In this document: piece by piece, positions 1,318-28,063 of the stretch | How the letters are laid out: each line of letters begins with the position of its first letter | Numbering within the stretch: position 1 is the first letter of the stretch | From: Deltaproteobacteria bacterium | Lineage (GTDB): Bacteria > Myxococcota_A > Polyangia > Haliangiales > Haliangiaceae | Assembly (NCBI GenBank): GCA_005887925.1 | Contig: VBLP01000108.1 | Span: 1-32,826, forward strand | Length of the DNA stretch: 32,826 nt | Reading direction: 5' to 3' | The notes under the pieces: model-generated | The model's database searches: none | Told to the model about the DNA's origin: nothing | Seen by the model: the letters and a program-made list of their open reading frames with translations, nothing else | Translations under genes and position numbers: made by a program

Positions 1318-2146
1318 GACAGGACCCGATGGCCGAACAGCCCGCCGGGCCGCAGCACCAGGACCAGCACCAGCAGCGCGAAGCCGACCGTGGTCGTCAG
1401 GTACGTCGGCAGGATCAGCACCGAGAACTGCTCGACCGCCGCCACGATCAGCGCCGCCAGCCCCACGCCGTAGATGCTGCCCAGCCCGCCCAGCACTCGA
1501 ACGGGAACACCGTCGCCAGCAGCACGCCCGCCACGCTCGCCAGCGCGGTCCCGATGCCGAAGGTCAGCGCGTAGATCGCGTCGACGTCGATGCCGACCAG
1601 CGTGCAGCTATCGGCGTTCTGGGCCGCGGCGCGGATCGCGCGGCCGATCAACGTGCGGCGCAACAGCAGGTGCAGCGCCACCGCGATCGCCGCGCCGACA
1701 CCGAGCAGCACCAGCCGGGGCAGCGCGACGTGGAGGCCGAGCAGCGACAGCGAGCGCGTGTACGTCCCGTGGATGTCGTGCGTGTTGCCGGTGAACAGCA
1801 CGTAGGCGATGTTGCGCAGCACCAGCCACACGCCGAACAGCAGCAGGAGCGACGCCGGCCCGCCGGCCGGGCCGCGCGGCAGTCGCCGCACCAGCCCGCG
1901 GTAGATCGCGGCGCCGAGCCCGAAGCCGATCGCCCCCACCACCGGGATCGCGAGGTACGGATCGAGGCCGAGGTGGTCGCGGATCACCCAGGCCAGGTAC
2001 GCCCCGACCATGATGACGCCGCCGTGCGCCAGGTTGACCACGCGCAAGACGCCGTAGATCAGGCTGAGGCCGTACGCCATCGTCGCGTACAGCCCCGCGA
2101 GCAGCACCGAGGACACCACCAGGTCGGCGAAGCGCGACGCCGACAT
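1314..2146 (-). pseudogene. livH: Branched-chain amino-acid ABC transporter permease (LivH-like), frame-disrupted near 1495-1502
   Basis: N-terminal part in ORF 1448..2146 (MSASRFADLVVSSVLLAGLYATMAYGLSLIYGVLRVVNLAHGG...VLLATVFPFE); C-terminal part in another frame, ORF 1314..1496 ([V]LGGLGSIYGVGLAALIVAAVEQF...). The usual stretch between FPF and VLGGLGS is absent. Confidence 0.85.
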
Positions 2147-8248: not shown

Positions 8249-10023
8249 TTAGCTCTCTGCGTCCGCATTGCGGTACATCGCCTCGATCGCGGCGGCGTAC
8301 TTGTGGACGATCACGCGCCGCTTGAGCTTGAGCGTCGGCGTGAGCTCCTCGCTCTCGGCCGTCCACTCGCCGGGCAGGATCGTCCACTTGCGGATGCTCT
8401 CGACCCGCGACACCCGCTCGTTGACCGCCGCGACCGCGCGCGCGACCTCGGCCGCGACCTCGGGGTGCGCCGCGAGCTCGGCGATCGCCTGGCCCGCCAT
8501 GCCGCGCGCCGCGGCCCACGCCGGCGCGTTCTGACCGTCGAGCACGATCAGCGCCGTCAGGTAGGCCCGGTTGTCGCCGATCACGCAGGCCTGTCCGATC
8601 AGCGAGTGCGCCTTGAGCAGGCCCTCGAGGTTGGCCGGCGAGATGTTCTTGCCGCCGGCGGTGATGATCAGCTCCTTCTTGCGATCGACGATCGTGTAGT
8701 AGCCGTCGGCGTCGACCGCCGCGATGTCGCCGGTCGACAGCCAGCCGTCGGCGTCGATCGTCTCGGCGGTCTTGGCCGGCTCCTTGTAGTAGCCGCGCAT
8801 CACCAGGCCGCCGCGGACCTGGAGCTCGCCGTCGGCCGCGAGCCGGAGCTCGACGCCGGGCAGCGCCGTGCCGATCGAGCCGATCTTCACCCGGTCGGGC
8901 GGGTTGCGCGTCCCCATCACGGCGATCTCGCTCATCCCCCAGACCTCGTTGATCCGCAGGCCGATCGCGTGGAAGAACTCGAGGACCTCGCGCGGCGTCG
9001 GCGCGGCGCCCGTGACCGTGTAGCGCGTGCGGTCGAGCCCGATCCGGGCGCGGATCGCCGCGAAGATCGGCTCGACCATCGCGCGCTTCTGCTGCAGGTC
9101 GGCAGGGACCGGCTCGCCGCGCTGCTCGTGCGCGACGACCGCTCGCCCGATCTCGAGCGCGCCCAGCACCATGCGCCGCTTTTGCTCGTCGGGCTCGTTG
9201 CTGATCGCGCTCGTCAAGCCTGCATGAAGCTTCTCCCAGATCCGTGGCACGTGTGCCCGGTCACCAGCGACGTGTAGTAGCCGAGGAAGCGGTCCGCCGC
9301 GTGGGCGAGCGGCAGGTAGCTCAGCGTGCAGTCCTGCTCGGTGTTCTGCACGTCGCGGCGCGCCGACTCGATGACCCACAGCGCGGAGCGCTGGGTGTCG
9401 ATCACGCCCTTCGGCGGGCCGGTGGTGCCCGACGTGTAGATCAACGTCACGATGTCGTCGGGCGTGACCGCCCGCCACAGCCGGTCGAACGCTCCCGCGT
9501 CGCGGGCGTGCACGGCGCGGCCGAGCGCGAGCAGCTCGTCGAACGTGATCACCGACGGGTCATCGCTCGCGCCGTCGAGCAGCACGATGTGGTCGAGCTG
9601 CGGCAGCTCGTCGCGCCGGAACCGCGCCAGGAACGCCGGGTTGTCGACCACCGCGACCCGGGCGTCGCAGTGGTTGGTGATGTAGCTGATCTGCTCGGGC
9701 GCCAGCGTGTTGTACAGACCGACCGCCGTGACCCCCGCGTGCATCAGGCCGAGATCGGCGATCACGTACTCCATGCGATTGCGCGCCATGACCACGCCGA
9801 AGCTCCTCGGCTTCACCCCGAGCGCCTGGAAGCCGAGCGCCGCGTCGCGGACCCGCTCGCGATACTGCTTCCACGTCAACGACCGCCGCTCGCCGCCCGG
9901 GCCCTTGTCGACCAGCGCCTCGGCATCCCCCAGCCGCTCGGCCGTCGCGGCGAACTTGCTGCACAGCGTCTGGCCCTCGATCGCTCGTTCGATATCTCTT
10001 CGCTCGGCGGCGATATCGCGCAT
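8249..10023 (-). pseudogene. Long-chain fatty-acid--CoA ligase / AMP-dependent synthetase, frame-disrupted near 9246-9256
   Basis: N-terminal part ORF 9214..10023 (LIYTSGTTGPPKGV; SYLPLAHAADRFLGYYTSLVTGHTC) and C-terminal part in another frame of ORF 8249..9478 (VPRIWEKLHAG...NEVWGMSE...WLSTGDIAAVDADGYYTIVDRKKELIITAGGKNISP). Confidence 0.88.
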
Positions 10024-20194: not shown

Positions 20195-20932
20195 ATGCGC
20201 GTGCTCGCCGCGATCGGCCTTGCGATCCTGTTCGCGATCGGCGCCGGGCTCGGCCTGGCGATCGGCGCGGTGGTGTTCTTCGTCAGCTGGCGGCGCAGCG
20301 CGCGGGCGGTGCACGCCGACGGCGTGGTCTGCCGCGGCGAGCTCACGGCGGCTGACCGGTCGGCGGCGCGCCTGGCGGGGCCGGCGCTGGTCCGGCTGTC
20401 CGGCGCCCTGGAAGGCCAGGCCACCACCGGCACGGATGTGCTCGGCGTCGAGATCCGGATGCAGCGGACCGCGCGCAACGACGCGGCACACGGCGACCAG
20501 GATCTGGTGTTCGGCAGCTTCGAGTCGTTCGCCACGGCCGCGCGCGATCGCGCCCGGACCAACGCCGGCGACTACCTCGCCAACTGCTATTCGACGGTGA
20601 CGCCCTGGTGGCTGACAAGCCACGGGCCGGTGATCCTGCGGCTGATCGCGGCACCCGCGGCGGCGCCCGAGCGCGGCAGTGACCGGCTGGCCCGGCTCGA
20701 TGCAGATCTGGTAACCGATCGCGCACGGTTTTCACTGGTGGTCGACGCGCCGGCCGGCCGGGTCGCGCTCGGTGAGCTGCGTCTCGTCGAGCGGCTCGCG
20801 ATCGACGATCGCGCGCTGCGCGTCTCGATGTTCCGCCAGGGCCGCGGCGTCCGGCCGCTCGGGCTGCGGAACGGGATTCGCGCCACCGTATATCCGATGA
20901 GCCAGCTCGCGCGCCGTCTGCGCGGCGGGTAG
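20195..20932 (+). CDS. Membrane-anchored protein of unknown function
   Basis: MRVLAAIGLAILFAIGAGLGLAIGAVVFFVSWRRSARA N-terminal TM anchor; 245 aa; followed after 16 nt by the kinase gene. Confidence 0.7.
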   Translation: MRVLAAIGLAILFAIGAGLGLAIGAVVFFVSWRRSARAVHADGVVCRGELTAADRSAARLAGPALVRLSGALEGQATTGTDVLGVEIRMQRTARNDAAHGDQDLVFGSFESFATAARDRARTNAGDYLANCYSTVTPWWLTSHGPVILRLIAAPAAAPERGSDRLARLDADLVTDRARFSLVVDAPAGRVALGELRLVERLAIDDRALRVSMFRQGRGVRPLGLRNGIRATVYPMSQLARRLRGG

Positions 20933-20948
20933 GATCACGGCCCGAGCG

Positions 20949-23900
20949 ATGCAGGAGGTCGCAAGCTCCATCGATCGGTACCAGGTGGTGCGGCGGATCG
21001 GCGCCGGCGGCATGGGCGTGGTGTACGAGGCCGACGACGTCGAGCGCGGCCAGAAGGTCGCGCTCAAGACGATCTCCAACCCCGACGTCGAGAAGATCTA
21101 CCAGCTCAAGCGCGAGTTCCGCGCGCTCGCCGACCTGTCGCATCCCAACCTGGTCGCGCTCTACGATCTCGTGGTCGTCGCGGACTCGTGCTTCTTCACG
21201 ATGGAGCTGCTCGACGGCGTCGACCTGCTCACCTACCTGTGGGGCCGCAAGGTCGAGGATCCGGCGGAGCTCGTGACCACGACGCTCACGCCGATGCCGC
21301 CCGGCTTCGAGGGCGCCCCCGGCGAAGGCGAGTCGATCACGCTGACCTCGCCGCAGCCGACGCCGTGCGACATCGATCGCCTGCGCCATGCGCTGCCGCA
21401 GCTCGCGCGCGGCCTGCACGCGCTGCACAGCGCCGGCAAGATCCACCGCGACGTCAAGCCGTCGAACATCCAGGTCACCAGCGACGGCCGGGTCGTGCTG
21501 CTCGATTTCGGGCTGGTCGCCGAGCTCGAGCGCCGCCAGGGTGCCGACGGCATGATCGTCGGCACCGTCGCGTACATGGCGCCCGAGCAGTGCGCCGGCG
21601 ACGTCCAGCTCAGCGCCGCCGCTGACTGGTACGGCCTGGGCGTCGTGGTGTTCCAGGCGCTGACCGGGCGGCTGCCGTTCGAGGGCGTGCCGACCCGCGT
21701 GCTGTTCGAGAAGCAGACCGAACCCGCGCCGCGGCCGTCGCGGCTGGTCCAGCACGTCCCGCGCGACCTCGACGATCTGTGCGCCGAGCTCCTCGAGCGC
21801 GAGCCCGCCGATCGGCCGACCGGCGCGCAGCTCCTGCACCGCCTCGGCGTCGCCGACACCGACCGGATGGCCGCGCCGATGGTCACGGTGTCGCGCGAGG
21901 GCGGCTTCGCGGGCCGCACCGCCGAGCTCGCCACGCTGGAGGCCGCGCTCGAGCCGCTCGCGGTCAAGCGCGCCTCGGTCGCGCTGGTCCGCGCGCCGTC
22001 GGGCATGGGCAAGACCGCGCTGGTCACGCGGTTCCTCGAGCGACTGCGCTCGACCAACCCCAACGCGCTCCTGCTCCACGGCCGCTGCCTCGATCGCGAG
22101 GACGTGCCGTACAAGGCGATGGATCCGTTGATCGACGAGCTCAGCGACTGGTGGCTCGGCCTGGCACCCAAGCAGGCCCAGGCGCTGTTGCCGCGCGACG
22201 CCTACCTCCTGCCGACCTTGTTCCCGGTGCTCGACCGCGTGCCGGCGATCGCCGATGCGCCGCGCACCCGGGTCGTCGCCGATCCGCAGGCCCGCCGGAC
22301 CCACGCGTTCGGCGCGCTGCGCGAGACCCTGCAGCGGCTCGGCGACCGCCACACCGTCGTGCTGTTCCTCGACGACATGCAGTGGGTCGATCGCGACACC
22401 ACGGCGCTGCTCGCCGACCTGATGCGCGCGCCCGATCCGCCGCCGGTGCTGCTCGTGCTCGCGACCCGCAGCGAGGGCGGCGCGCCGGTCGTCGACCTGG
22501 TGCGCCGCATGGACGCCGCGCAGCGCCTGATCGACCTGGGCCCGCTGTCGGTCGACGCCGCGACCGCGATCGCGGTGTCGCACCTCGGCGAGGACAACCG
22601 CGAGACCGCCGAGCAGCTGGTGCGCGAGGCCGACGGCAGCCCGCTGTTCTTGATCGAGCTCGCCCGCTACCTGCACGGCCGCAGCGTCGCCGACGTCGCC
22701 GGCAAGGGGCTCGACGCGATGCTCGCCGAGCGAATCGGCGGCCTGGGCGAGACCGCGCGCGCGATCGCCGAGATCGTCGCGGTCGCCGGCGAGCCGATGA
22801 CGCGCTCGGCGCTGGGCGCGATCAGCGCCGTGCCCCCGGCAGAGCTGTCGCGCCAGCTCTCGCTGCTCCGCGCGCAGCGCGTGGTGCGGATGTCGGGCTC
22901 GCGCGCCGAGGACACGATCGAGCCGTACCACGCCCGGGTCCGCTCGGCGGTGCTGAACCAGCTCGACAACGAACACCGCGCGCGCCACCACCGCGCGCTC
23001 GCGATCGCGCTGTCGGGCAAGGGCTCGGCCGAGCAGCTCGCGCGCCACTGGTACGGCGCCGGCGACCTCGAGCACGCCGCGGGCCACGCGCGGCGCGCCG
23101 GCGACGAGGCCCGCGCCAAGCTCGACTTCGACCTGTCGTCGCGCTGGTACGCGATCGCGCTCGAGGGCCCGCAGTGGACCGACGCCGAGCGCCGCGCCCT
23201 GCGCACCCAGCTCGCCGACGCGCTCGCCGACGCCGGCCGGCCGCGCGAGGCGGCCGAACAGTTCCTGGTCGCCGCGTCCGGCGCCGACGCCGCGACCACG
23301 CTCGAGCTGCGCCGCCGTGCCGCCGGCTCGCTGCTCCAGTCGGGCTACGTCGCGGAGGGCCTGGGGTTCCGGCCGCGCTCGCTCGCCGAGATCAGCCAGG
23401 CCGAGCTGACCCGCGTCGATGTCTGCGAGGGCGTCTCGTTCGGGCTCGCGCTGGTCGACACCTTCCGCTCGATGGACTTCGGCACGCGGTTCCTCCTGTC
23501 CGCGCTGCGGCTCGGCGAGCGCTGGCGGGTGTCGCGCGCGATCGCGCTCGAGACCGACTTCCTCGCCGCGACCGCCAAGTCGGCGCGCGCGGTGCGCCTG
23601 CTCGACAGGCTCGAGCAGCTGACCGCCACGCTCGACGAGGTGCCCGCCCACGCGCAGCTGCTCACCACGCGCGGCTTCGTCGACTTCTTCGTTCATGCCC
23701 GGTTCCGCCGCGCGCTCGGCCACTTCAGCGAGGCGATCGCGAGCTACCGCGCGGTGGTCGGCCGCGCCGGCTTCGAGCTCGACACCGTCAGCATGTTCTG
23801 CTGCTGGGCGCTGTACTACCTGGGCGAGATCGGCGAGCTGTCGCGGCGGGTCCCGGCGATGGCCGAGGCCGCCGCCCGCAACGGCAACCGCTACACCGCC

Positions 23901-24569
23901 GTCACGCTGCGCTGCGCATTTCCGATCGCGTGGCTCGCCCGGTTCGAGCCCGACGCGATCGAGGCCGAGATCGACGCCGCGCTCGGCTCGTGGAGCAGCA
24001 GCGACGGCAGCTACCAGCTCCAGCACCTGTTCGCGCTCGCGTCGCGGCTCGACCTGTCGCTGTATCGCCGCCGCCCCGAGGACCTCACGCCGCGGATCGC
24101 CGCGGAGTGCAAGCGGATCCGGCGCTCGCTGGTCGACCGCCCGCCGATGCAGGGCGTGGTCCTGCAGTCGACGCTGTTGCGCCACGCCGTCGCGTGCGCC
24201 CGGCACGCCCCGCCCGGCTCGTCGCGCCGCCGCGAGGCGCTCGCCGAGGCCCGCGGTCACCTGCGCCGGTTCCCGCGCCGCTCGCTCCCGGTGATCGCGT
24301 ACGTCTCGCAGCTGTTCGATGGCCTGATCGCCGACGCGGACGGCCGCCCCGAGGAGGCGATCGCCCGGTACCGCGCGGCGATCCCCGGGCTCGACCGGCA
24401 TGACACGCACCTGTATGCCAACGCCGCACGCGACCGCCTCGGCCGGCTGATCGGCGGCGACGAGGGCGCCGCCCTGCGCGCCGGCGTGCGCGCCTGGCTG
24501 GATCGCGAGTCGGTCCGCGAGCCCGACACCATCCTCGACATGCTGCTCCCGGGCCCACCCTCGGTCTGA
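20949..24569 (+). CDS. Serine/threonine protein kinase fused to AAA-type predicted ATPase and helical repeat (TPR-like) region
   Basis: 1206 aa; kinase motifs GAGGMGVVYEA, VALKTI, KIHRDVKPSNIQV, LLDFGLVAE, GTVAYMAPEQ; then Walker A APSGMGKTALV and VVLFLDDMQWVD; C-terminal repeats. Confidence 0.95.
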   Translation: MQEVASSIDRYQVVRRIGAGGMGVVYEADDVERGQKVALKTISNPDVEKIYQLKREFRALADLSHPNLVALYDLVVVADSCFFTMELLDGVDLLTYLWGRKVEDPAELVTTTLTPMPPGFEGAPGEGESITLTSPQPTPCDIDRLRHALPQLARGLHALHSAGKIHRDVKPSNIQVTSDGRVVLLDFGLVAELERRQGADGMIVGTVAYMAPEQCAGDVQLSAAADWYGLGVVVFQALTGRLPFEGVPTRVLFEKQTEPAPRPSRLVQHVPRDLDDLCAELLEREPADRPTGAQLLHRLGVADTDRMAAPMVTVSREGGFAGRTAELATLEAALEPLAVKRASVALVRAPSGMGKTALVTRFLERLRSTNPNALLLHGRCLDREDVPYKAMDPLIDELSDWWLGLAPKQAQALLPRDAYLLPTLFPVLDRVPAIADAPRTRVVADPQARRTHAFGALRETLQRLGDRHTVVLFLDDMQWVDRDTTALLADLMRAPDPPPVLLVLATRSEGGAPVVDLVRRMDAAQRLIDLGPLSVDAATAIAVSHLGEDNRETAEQLVREADGSPLFLIELARYLHGRSVADVAGKGLDAMLAERIGGLGETARAIAEIVAVAGEPMTRSALGAISAVPPAELSRQLSLLRAQRVVRMSGSRAEDTIEPYHARVRSAVLNQLDNEHRARHHRALAIALSGKGSAEQLARHWYGAGDLEHAAGHARRAGDEARAKLDFDLSSRWYAIALEGPQWTDAERRALRTQLADALADAGRPREAAEQFLVAASGADAATTLELRRRAAGSLLQSGYVAEGLGFRPRSLAEISQAELTRVDVCEGVSFGLALVDTFRSMDFGTRFLLSALRLGERWRVSRAIALETDFLAATAKSARAVRLLDRLEQLTATLDEVPAHAQLLTTRGFVDFFVHARFRRALGHFSEAIASYRAVVGRAGFELDTVSMFCCWALYYLGEIGELSRRVPAMAEAAARNGNRYTAVTLRCAFPIAWLARFEPDAIEAEIDAALGSWSSSDGSYQLQHLFALASRLDLSLYRRRPEDLTPRIAAECKRIRRSLVDRPPMQGVVLQSTLLRHAVACARHAPPGSSRRREALAEARGHLRRFPRRSLPVIAYVSQLFDGLIADADGRPEEAIARYRAAIPGLDRHDTHLYANAARDRLGRLIGGDEGAALRAGVRAWLDRESVREPDTILDMLLPGPPSV

Positions 24570-24650: not shown

Positions 24651-24938
24651 ATGCGCCACGCGCTGCTCACCCTCACCGTCCTGACGTCGGCCTGTCTGGC
24701 CGAGTCCGCGAACGGTCCCGCGGGTCACACGGCGACGCGCGCCGCGCCGGCCTGCGCGACCGCGCGGCCTACCGGCAGCAACATCACTCGCTGGGTCTGT
24801 CCGCCCGAGCTGAAACCGACCGATCCCATGGAAGCGGCCGTCTGGGGCAACCACGATCCGGCCCGGCCATTCGATCCCGCGCGCGAGGGCTCGTACACCA
24901 CGGACACGCCGGGTCTCCGCGTCTATCCAATCCGATGA
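24651..24938 (+). CDS. Small putative lipoprotein
   Basis: MRHALLTLTVLTSACLAESANGPAG...; 95 aa; stop codon lies inside the first tandem-repeat unit. Confidence 0.6.
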   Translation: MRHALLTLTVLTSACLAESANGPAGHTATRAAPACATARPTGSNITRWVCPPELKPTDPMEAAVWGNHDPARPFDPAREGSYTTDTPGLRVYPIR

Positions 24939-25043
24939 TCCCGCTCCGGCCAATCCGATGATCCCGCTCCGGCCATTCCGATGATCCCCCGCTCCGGCCA
25001 TTCCGATGATCCCGCTCCGGCCATTCCGATGACGCCGCTCGGG
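24927..25043. repeat. Tandem repeat, 5 units of about 23 bp, consensus CCATTCCGATGATCCCGCTCCGG
   Basis: Units 24927-24949, 24950-24972, 24973-24997 (25 nt), 24998-25020, 25021-25043 (diverged). Confidence 0.95.
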
Positions 25044-25075
25044 CGGGTCGGCGGGCGAGCGCGGTACCTGACGTG

Positions 25076-26288
25076 ATGCGCGACGCGACCCAGGCGCTGA
25101 CCATCCTCGCCGAGATCGCGCCCGGCGCGCGCGCGCCGCTCGCGCGCCGGCTCGCCGCGATCGCCGAGGACCTCGATGGCAATCCTGTCTTCCGGCCGTG
25201 CGAGCTGCCGGATACCCACTTCATGCGCCTGGTGATCATCGATGACCCGCGCCGAGAGCTGCCGGCGCTGCTCGCGTGGGAGAGCAACCACGACGGCCCG
25301 GCCGCCGACTACCTCGCCGCGGTGGCCCGCACCGCTCCGTCGATCTCGGCGGTGTTCGAGTGCTGCGCCGGCTATCCCGCGGGCGGCATCGCCGATATCG
25401 ACCGCTGGGTCGCGTGGATGCGCGCGCACAGCCACCGCGCCAACGCGTTCTACGCCGGCTATCGCGGCGTGCCGCGCAGCGCCGTGGTCAACGATCGCCG
25501 CGTCCACGACGCGATCCGCGACGTCCTCGATCGCGCCGACCGCGACGAGCTGTGCACGCTGTCGCGCAGCGACCTCCAGCGCGCGATCTGCGAGCGCGTC
25601 GCGGCGCGCCGCCCCGAGCTCGACACCTCACCGCGCGGCGACGACGAGCTGCGCTGGCTGCTCGGCAAGCTCGCCGCGGCCGCCGCCGGCCTCGCGCTGC
25701 TGCCGCTCGTGCTCGTCGTGGCCCCGCTGTGGTACCTCGTGCTGCGCCACCGGGAGAGCCGACCAGGTGACCCAGAACCAGCTGACCCACGTGGTCGACG
25801 TGAGGCCCGGCCGGTTCCGGCTCGCCACGCTGTGGCTGGTGCTCGCCGCGATCGACATCGCCGCGCGGGTCCACGCCGTGCGCGGCCAGCTCGGCGGCAT
25901 CACCGCGATCCACTTCGCGCGCTGGGTGATCGTCCGCGATCGCCGCCCCGTGCAGCCGCGGCGCCACCGGCTGGTGTTCTTCTCGAACTACGACGGCAGC
26001 TGGGAGAGCTACCTCGGCGAGTTCATCGACCGCGCCGCCTCGGGGCTCACCGCGGTGTGGTCGAACACCGTCGGGTTCCCGGCGACGCGGCACCTCGTGC
26101 TCGCCGGCGCGCGGGACGAGGAGTCGTTCAAGCAGTGGACCCGCGAGCATCAGCTGCCGACCCAGGTGTGGTGGAGCGGCGTCCCCGATGCCACGGTGCA
26201 GAACATCCGCGACGACGTGTGGATCCGGCAGCAGCTGAGCCGCGGCCTGCCCGACCACGAGCTCGAGACCTGGCTCGGCAAGCTATGA
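25076..26288 (+). pseudogene. Two-domain protein of unknown function paired with DyP peroxidase, frame-disrupted near 25751-25765
   Basis: N-terminal half in one frame (THFMRLVIIDDPRRELPALLAWESNHDGPAADYLAAVARTAPSISAVFECCAGYP...PLVLVVAPLWYLVLRHRE); C-terminal half in another frame (ADQVTQNQLTHVVDVRPGRFRLATLWLVLAAIDIAARV...IHFARWVIVRDRR...LVFFSNYDGSWESYLGEFIDRAASGLTAVWSNTVGFP). Skipping 1 nt near 25757 joins them. Confidence 0.75.
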
Positions 26289-27577
26289 CCGTGCCCGGCC
26301 CCGACGACCTCGAGGACATCCAGGGCCTGATCTACAGCGCCTGGCTCGATCATCCGCACGCCGGCTTCCTGTTCGCCCGCCTCGGCGACGACCCGGCCGC
26401 CGCGCGCGGCTGGCTCGACACCGTGCGCCGCCTGGTCACGCCGGCGGTCCGGCATCGCCGCCGCCTCCACGGCCGGCTGCAGGTCGCGCTGTCGCCGACC
26501 GGCCTCGCCGCGCTCGGCGTCCCCGGCGACGTGATCGCGATGATGGCGCCCGAGGCCACCGCCGGCATGGCCGCCCGCCGCCGCGTCCTGGCCGACACAC
26601 CCGCCGACGCGTGGGAGCTCGGCGGCCCCGGCGACCGGCTCGACGCGCTCGTGATGGTCTATACCCGCGACGCGGAGACGCTGGCCGGCGAGCTCGCCGC
26701 GCAGCGCCATGCGCTCGTCGCCGCCGGCGCCCAGGTTCACGCCGACGAGCTCGGCTCGCCGATCGGACAGCGCGAGCACTTCGGCTTCGCCGACGGCCTG
26801 TCGCAGCCGTTCATCGCCGGCGTCCATCCCCGGCCCCGGCCCGGCGAGGACCCGATCCCCGTCGGCGAGATCGTGCTCGGCTACCCCAACGCCTACGGCC
26901 GGCTGCCGATGACCCCGATCTGGGGTGACTTCGATCTCGGCCGGAACGGCAGCTACCTGGTGTTCCGCAAGCTCGCGCAGGACGTCGCCGGGCTGTGGCG
27001 CTGGGTCGCCGATCACGCCCGCCGCCTCGCCGCCGGCGATCCGGCCATGGCCGACTACCTCACCGAGCTGCTCGCCGCCAAGCTGATCGGCCGCTGGCCG
27101 AGCGGCGCGCCGCTCACCCTCGCCCCCGATCGCGACGATCGATCGCTCGCCGCGCCGGAGCGCCGCAACTGCTTCGGCTACCTCGAGCACGACCGCGATG
27201 GCCTGCGCTGTCCGATCTCGGCGCACATTCGCCGCGCCAACCCGCGCGACGCCCGCGGCGGCAGCGCCGACGATTCGCAGACCGTCGTCGGCCGCCACGC
27301 CGTACTGCTCGCTCGCCTCGGCGCCGCGCTGACGGCCCTGCGAGCCGGCTTCGAGTTCATCCAGCAGACCTGGCTCGCCAACCCCGGCTTCCTCGGCCTG
27401 CACTGCGAGCCCGATCCGCTGCTCGGCGGCGCCGCCGGCCAGGGCCACTTCACCATCCCAGCCGATCCGATCCGCCTCCGCCTCACCGGCGTCCCGACGG
27501 TGGTGACCAACCGCGGCGGCGGCTACTTCTTCCTGCCGTCGCTCTCGGCCCTCGCCCGCATCGCCGCCGGCCCGTGA
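26285..27577 (+). CDS. DyP-type heme peroxidase with an abnormal internal segment
   Basis: HFGFADGLSQPF (GxxDG), proximal His motif CPISAHIRRANPRD, FEFIQQTWLANPGF, GGGYFFLPSL. ATGA overlap with the preceding gene. Segment between VVGRH and FEFIQQTW is atypical. Confidence 0.85.
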   Translation: MTVPGPDDLEDIQGLIYSAWLDHPHAGFLFARLGDDPAAARGWLDTVRRLVTPAVRHRRRLHGRLQVALSPTGLAALGVPGDVIAMMAPEATAGMAARRRVLADTPADAWELGGPGDRLDALVMVYTRDAETLAGELAAQRHALVAAGAQVHADELGSPIGQREHFGFADGLSQPFIAGVHPRPRPGEDPIPVGEIVLGYPNAYGRLPMTPIWGDFDLGRNGSYLVFRKLAQDVAGLWRWVADHARRLAAGDPAMADYLTELLAAKLIGRWPSGAPLTLAPDRDDRSLAAPERRNCFGYLEHDRDGLRCPISAHIRRANPRDARGGSADDSQTVVGRHAVLLARLGAALTALRAGFEFIQQTWLANPGFLGLHCEPDPLLGGAAGQGHFTIPADPIRLRLTGVPTVVTNRGGGYFFLPSLSALARIAAGP

Positions 27578-27643
27578 GCCATGGCTCGCAGGGCCGTCAG
27601 CGCGGCGCCGAGGCGAGCGAGCAGTACGGCGTGGCGGCCGACG
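27286..27643. repeat. Perfect 61-nt inverted repeat: arms 27286-27346 and 27583-27643
   Basis: CGTCGGCCGCCACGCCGTACTGCTCGCTCGCCTCGGCGCCGCGCTGACGGCCCTGCGAGCC and its exact reverse complement; 236-nt spacer. Confidence 0.97.
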
Positions 27644-28063
27644 GCGCCTCGACTCGACCGCGATCGCGCGCTGCGGGCACGACTCGTCCTCGCTCCAGGC
27701 GCGCCAGGTCGTCGAGTAGCCGTCGACCGACGGCGTCCACGCCAGCGATGCGATCCACCGGCTGAACTTGGCGTCCCAGGTCAGGCCGCTGTCGGCGGGC
27801 CAGGCCAGCCCGGCCGCGCGCGCCGCCGGCGTGTCGGTGTCCTCCCAGCGGTTTCTCGCGATCCACACCTGCGTGCGCGTGGTATCGCTCGCGACCGGCA
27901 GGCCGCGCCGCAGCTCGGAGTCGTCCTTGCCCGGCGGCGGCGTCGGCGACAGCGGCCCGGACATGCCCCATTCCTCGTCGAGGTCGATGTCACCGCTCGC
28001 GCAGCCAGCGAGGCCCGCGCCGGACAGCCCGGACAGCACAGCCACGAGCGCGACCGATCTCAT
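27644..28063 (-). pseudogene. 5' fragment of a lipoprotein gene, fused at its 3' end to the inverted-repeat arm
   Basis: ATG 28063: MRSVALVAVLSGLSGAGLAGCASGDIDLDEEWGMSG...FSRWIASLAWTPSVDGYSTTWRAWSEDESCPQRAIAVES then low-complexity RRRRPPRRTARSPRRR read from the repeat; GGAGG SD upstream. Confidence 0.6.

Follow-up and report, generated by a model that had tools for sequence, protein, structure and literature searches.

Organization of the locus

The window, i.e., the whole stretch of DNA analyzed here (32,826 nt, one contig of a draft genome), carries on its forward strand an open reading frame for a DyP-type peroxidase (26285–27577), which starts with MTVPGPDDLEDIQG and is full length save for one replaced segment. 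Upstream lies a gene (25073–26288, forward strand) that is continuous in relatives and breaks here at ~25756–25762, with ~20–24 codons lost and a frameshift. Downstream, on the reverse strand, is the remnant of a lipoprotein gene (27597–28063), in which the N-terminal ~119 residues are joined to the last ~40; its relatives are ~540–570 residues long.

The peroxidase and lipoprotein genes share an inverted repeat. Positions 27286–27346, within the peroxidase frame, are the exact reverse complement of 27583–27643 over 61 nt with 0 mismatches (arms 100% identical), as a preliminary description of this DNA had stated. The arms are separated by 236 nt, and the outer span is 358 nt. When the window was shuffled 30 times with dinucleotides preserved, exact inverted repeats within 5 kb were at most 14–28 nt long per shuffle, against the 61 nt observed. 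A 31-nt piece of the arm, searched with up to 3 mismatches allowed, occurs at two places in the genome, both of which are these arms, and was found in none of the 16 relatives searched, where the preliminary description had proposed looking for the same junction. A dispersed repeat or mobile element is ruled out by these two genome copies and the lack of any in the 16 relatives. The genome sample for repeats and reading frames comprised 810 kb, or 6.6% of the genome, and the sampled stretches came from 60 contigs of the source genome (G000) and 40 of genome G007. Apart from this repeat, the 810 kb contain a single exact inverted repeat of 22 nt or longer whose arms are separate, a 28-nt one on contig C21, and an excess of inverted repeats across the sampled genome was not found (at least 15 nt within 1 kb: 4.2 per 100 kb, vs. 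3.3 and 4.4 in relatives).

An exchanged segment in the peroxidase

In same-genus DyP homologues the conserved VVxRH is followed by RILRRGRSYG..., a stretch of ~41 residues that ends in RGLYFISLQASIAR, and then by GFEFIQQTW. The window protein instead reads VVGRH, then AVLLARLGAALTALRA, then GFEFIQQTW, and the ILRRGxxYG stretch is missing. In an alignment with 21 homologous sequences, the same-genus members of which are 49–56% identical, AVLLARLGAALTALRA occurs at this position in the window protein alone, and the same-genus relatives keep an intact ILRRG segment. Of the repeat, the 13 nt at its left end (CGTCGGCCGCCAC, 27286–27298, forward strand) are native to the peroxidase gene, where they form the VVGRH codons; the lipoprotein 3′ end contains them too, and they constitute a microhomology at the left junction. 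The foreign part is thus the remaining 48 nt (27299–27346, forward strand), exactly 16 codons, which encode AVLLARLGAALTALRA and are copied in inverted orientation from the lipoprotein 3′ end. Through this exchange the protein loses ~41 residues, among them the distal Arg and those of two core β-strands, and gains in frame 16 residues of lipoprotein antisense. The replacement of the catalytic segment by the repeat arm, its in-frame outcome and the shared left edge had all been proposed beforehand, and alignment with homologues, the check suggested at the time, agrees with them; the earlier count of 17 residues between VVGRH and FEFIQQTW includes the G. At the right junction no clear overlap is seen; both the right-edge microhomology and the peroxidase length lost are estimates made from relatives. 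The missing peroxidase segment was not found elsewhere in the same genome. Outside the exchange the reading frame and the third-position G+C of the gene are intact, and decay by base substitution is not evident.

PDB DyP chains match the window protein with E-values down to 2.6e-49. TIGR01413 matches it at E 4.6e-20 and 72 bits, under the 100.5-bit cut-off of that model, and no Pfam model scores above its own cut-off. The GXXDG motif, which holds the distal Asp, is present as GFADG (26783–26797), with D169 and G170 invariant in the alignment, and so is the proximal heme His in SAH (27218–27226), whose column, H313, is likewise invariant. The distal Arg of ILRRGxxYG is absent from the assembled protein. 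When a relative is aligned with the chain of PDB 2d3q (Bjerkandera DyP), the first R of its LRR falls on R329 and the histidine of its SSH on H308, which we take to be the distal Arg and proximal His, respectively, of that enzyme. Compared with that enzyme and other DyP-type peroxidases, the assembled sequence retains the GFADG Asp and the proximal His and resembles them in overall sequence, whereas it is without the distal Arg and the two flanking strands. Most DyPs conserve a distal Asp and Arg, and the weight of the Arg varies between enzymes (PMC8197335). The AlphaFold2 model of a relative (L037; pTM 0.82) contains strands at 337–342 and 362–369 (ILRRGRSY and GLYFISL); that of the window protein (pTM 0.71) has neither strand, with pLDDT <50 over 329–395. 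As both models were built from the same 14 sequences, a shallow alignment, this comparison is supportive only. It is very probable that the protein as assembled would not work as a peroxidase.

The lipoprotein gene as source of the copy

The right arm (27583–27643, reverse strand) comprises the lipoprotein 3′ end SAATPYCSLASAPR, its stop codon (27597–27599) and 14 nt past the stop, and it is the source of the copy. One frame of this arm reads VEAPSAATPYCSLASAPR followed by a stop, the native end of the lipoprotein being ...EAPSAATPYCSLASAPR and a stop, and same-genus lipoprotein relatives terminate in ...EDESCPQKNVAADTETELEATPYCSL or similar. This agreement of sequence identifies the right arm as the native terminus of the lipoprotein gene. 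Since the right arm is native, the copy went from the end of the lipoprotein gene into the peroxidase gene. The preliminary description had the lipoprotein lose its 3′ end at this arm, which is wrong; the defects of the gene lie at ~27652 and ~27706. The first (27645–27655, reverse strand) is a frameshift with a frame change at ~27652 that fits the loss of 1 nt, and the second (27700–27710, reverse strand) is the junction, at ~27706, of an internal loss of ~1.2 kb. The missing middle of the lipoprotein gene was not found on other contigs of the same genome.

Breaks elsewhere in the contig and the genome

The 32.8-kb contig contains ~7 breaks including the peroxidase event, and in most of the others a few dozen codons are gone, in many cases together with a frameshift. 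In a 1221-residue gene (20901–24569), a junction at 23343–23363 (forward strand) marks an in-frame loss of 37 codons that are present in G015, and split matches from G007 and G011 agree with a loss at ~23.36 kb. A long-chain acyl-CoA ligase has a junction at 9180–9320 (reverse strand) with a frame change at ~9242; the Pfam AMP-binding profile is matched over 1–235 and 284–384 in different frames, and part of it is missing. In a branched-chain amino-acid permease (junction 1430–1570, reverse strand) the frame changes at ~1495, and a short conserved stretch is apparently missing. A scan of codon usage, made without homologues, independently located breaks at 1495, 9242, 25756, and 27652. Two minor features were seen in the same contig: the 37-codon loss falls between two similar Gly-Leu codon stretches, and between two genes, at 24927–25033, there are imperfect tandem copies of a 22–24-nt unit (GATCCCGCTCCGGCCATTCCGAT).

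The genome as a whole spans 12.2 Mb in 778 contigs and is 81% complete; genomes of the same genus measure 4.8–9.8 Mb. In the bin rpoB was not found, and one gyrA/parC match is partial; neither search bears on the question of breakage. The 810 kb sampled include 33 N-runs of 2–362 nt, so the assembly was scaffolded, and none occurs in the sampled stretches of G007, G013, and G015, contigs withheld in full being set aside. A role of G+C content in producing the N-runs is unsupported (0.697 near them, 0.700 elsewhere). One further gene split, at L161, was considered as a silent loss and rejected, as it sits at an N-run and is therefore a declared gap. The only purA of the genome is also split (contig C51, L196 4730–5949, break at ~5275), with ~25 codons missing, a frame change, and profile positions 173–202 lacking; in 16 of 19 relatives a single purA is intact over its full length. 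PurA is required for adenine nucleotide synthesis, and a broken sole copy would for this reason be implausible in a living cell, as far as can be concluded from an incomplete bin. Frame changes amount to 21.1 per 100 kb of coding sequence, vs. 7.6 in G007 and 16.6 in G013/G015, but this rate alone is weak evidence, because the measure also counts overlapping genes and the G013/G015 stretches reach 16.6 without N-runs.

Origin of the inverted repeat

What the data show is which way the copy went, how much was exchanged, that 13 nt are shared at one edge, that the assembly is a gapped scaffold, and that contig and genome have many other losses. In all likelihood the inverted repeat is an artefact that arose in making the draft genome, and not a feature of the organism. 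This reading is favored because the contig and the genome hold many comparable breaks, including that of the only purA. Recovery of the ~41-codon peroxidase segment would have been faulty; from the left flank, which ends in CGTCGGCCGCCAC, the sequence would have continued on the reverse strand of the lipoprotein 3′ end, where the same 13 nt lie ~300 nt downstream, and after 48 nt it would have been taken back into the peroxidase gene at GFEFIQQTW. Two routes may have led there. In route (a), a gap closer or scaffolder bridges the missing part either with a wrongly oriented mate read or by a false short overlap; in route (b), a template-switched chimeric molecule from the library or from amplification dominates a thinly covered spot. 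The outer span of 358 nt resembles a short-read insert, the largest N-run being 362 nt, and a wrongly oriented mate would be expected to give exactly this pattern. Since no clear overlap is seen at the right edge, a chimeric molecule is a somewhat better fit than a join made by overlap alone.

In several respects the locus resembles the misjoins and gap-fill errors of scaffolded short-read metagenome genomes, with which it shares N-runs of variable length, short losses and frameshifts in conserved genes, and joins at short shared sequences. Those errors are mostly simple losses, however, and an inverted fill is unusual. Some observations stand against an artefact. Inverted fills do not recur as a signature of this assembly, as this is the sole one in the 810 kb sampled and the breaks besides it are simple losses; a pure overlap-based misjoin would need a clear overlap, which the right junction lacks; and the exchange is in frame. 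Inverted chimeras from amplification, formed by template switching in MDA or PCR and seen as palindromic reads (PMC13265396), are alike in carrying an inverted copy of nearby sequence, which forms when a 3′ end anneals to a strand close by. Typical ones, in contrast, do not switch back after 48 nt to the strand they started from, and nothing here indicates an amplified sample.

The best-surviving alternative is a genuine template switch during replication, in which CGTCGGCCGCCAC would have let the nascent peroxidase strand pair with the opposite strand at the end of the lipoprotein gene; after a copy of 48 nt, synthesis would have resumed in the peroxidase gene ~123 nt further on, leaving a peroxidase that is in frame and probably dead. 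The preliminary description had left the choice between such an event and an assembly or amplification chimera; the many breaks, including that of the only purA, favor the chimera and make the template switch unlikely. Short-range template switch mutations of the four-point model (PMC7954356) do resemble the locus in that a short inverted stretch is copied exactly from a template before a return switch, one edge carries microhomology, and the segment skipped over is lost; the in-frame outcome also speaks for such an event. Templated inversions in great apes have a median copied length of 12 nt and a maximum of 128 nt (PMC7954356), so that a copy of 48–61 nt, far above the median, is long yet within the documented range. 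Against a natural event stand the surrounding, error-rich assembly and the many other breaks of contig and genome, that of the only purA among them, which would hardly be tolerable in a living cell. Arms without any divergence would moreover demand a very recent event, and no sister genome searched carries it. That a very recent natural switch in this myxobacterium-related lineage exchanged the distal part of the active site in frame for antisense of the neighboring gene, and so gave a full-length altered protein, is accordingly improbable.

Gene decay in a real organism fares worse and is very unlikely. The peroxidase gene, its upstream neighbor and the lipoprotein gene would then be pseudogenes that had accumulated deletions, in one case combined with a templated inversion, and the damage to three adjoining genes within ~2.3 kb, together with a lipoprotein loss (~1.2 kb) that exceeds the other gaps, would suit this account. 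Comparable damage is found elsewhere too, however (the permease, the acyl-CoA ligase, the 1221-residue gene and purA), and the intact frame and third-position G+C of the peroxidase outside the exchange show no evident decay by base substitution. That the repeat is a functional element between the two genes, i.e., a terminator, a recombination site or a phase-variable switch, is hardly credible: the single-strand fold of the region, a check proposed earlier, is very stable (z = −13), but it follows trivially from an exact repeat; there is no terminator- or promoter-like site, and neither the rest of the genome nor the 16 relatives hold a further copy; and the codons in which one arm lies belong to the active site, where all homologues differ in sequence.

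Implications for the use of the genome

A draft genome from a metagenome can thus present a plausible new protein variant, in this case an in-frame exchange within an active site, which should not enter protein databases as real. Given the many lost segments and frameshifts, claims of gene loss or of pseudogenes in the genome of this species need support from reads.

The 28-nt exact inverted repeat on contig C21 (L166 11326–11590) has a different setting. It lies at two convergent, paralogous gene ends that share a near-identical C-terminus (GIGEIIGGSQREERLD...), presumably resembling asparaginyl-tRNA synthetase.
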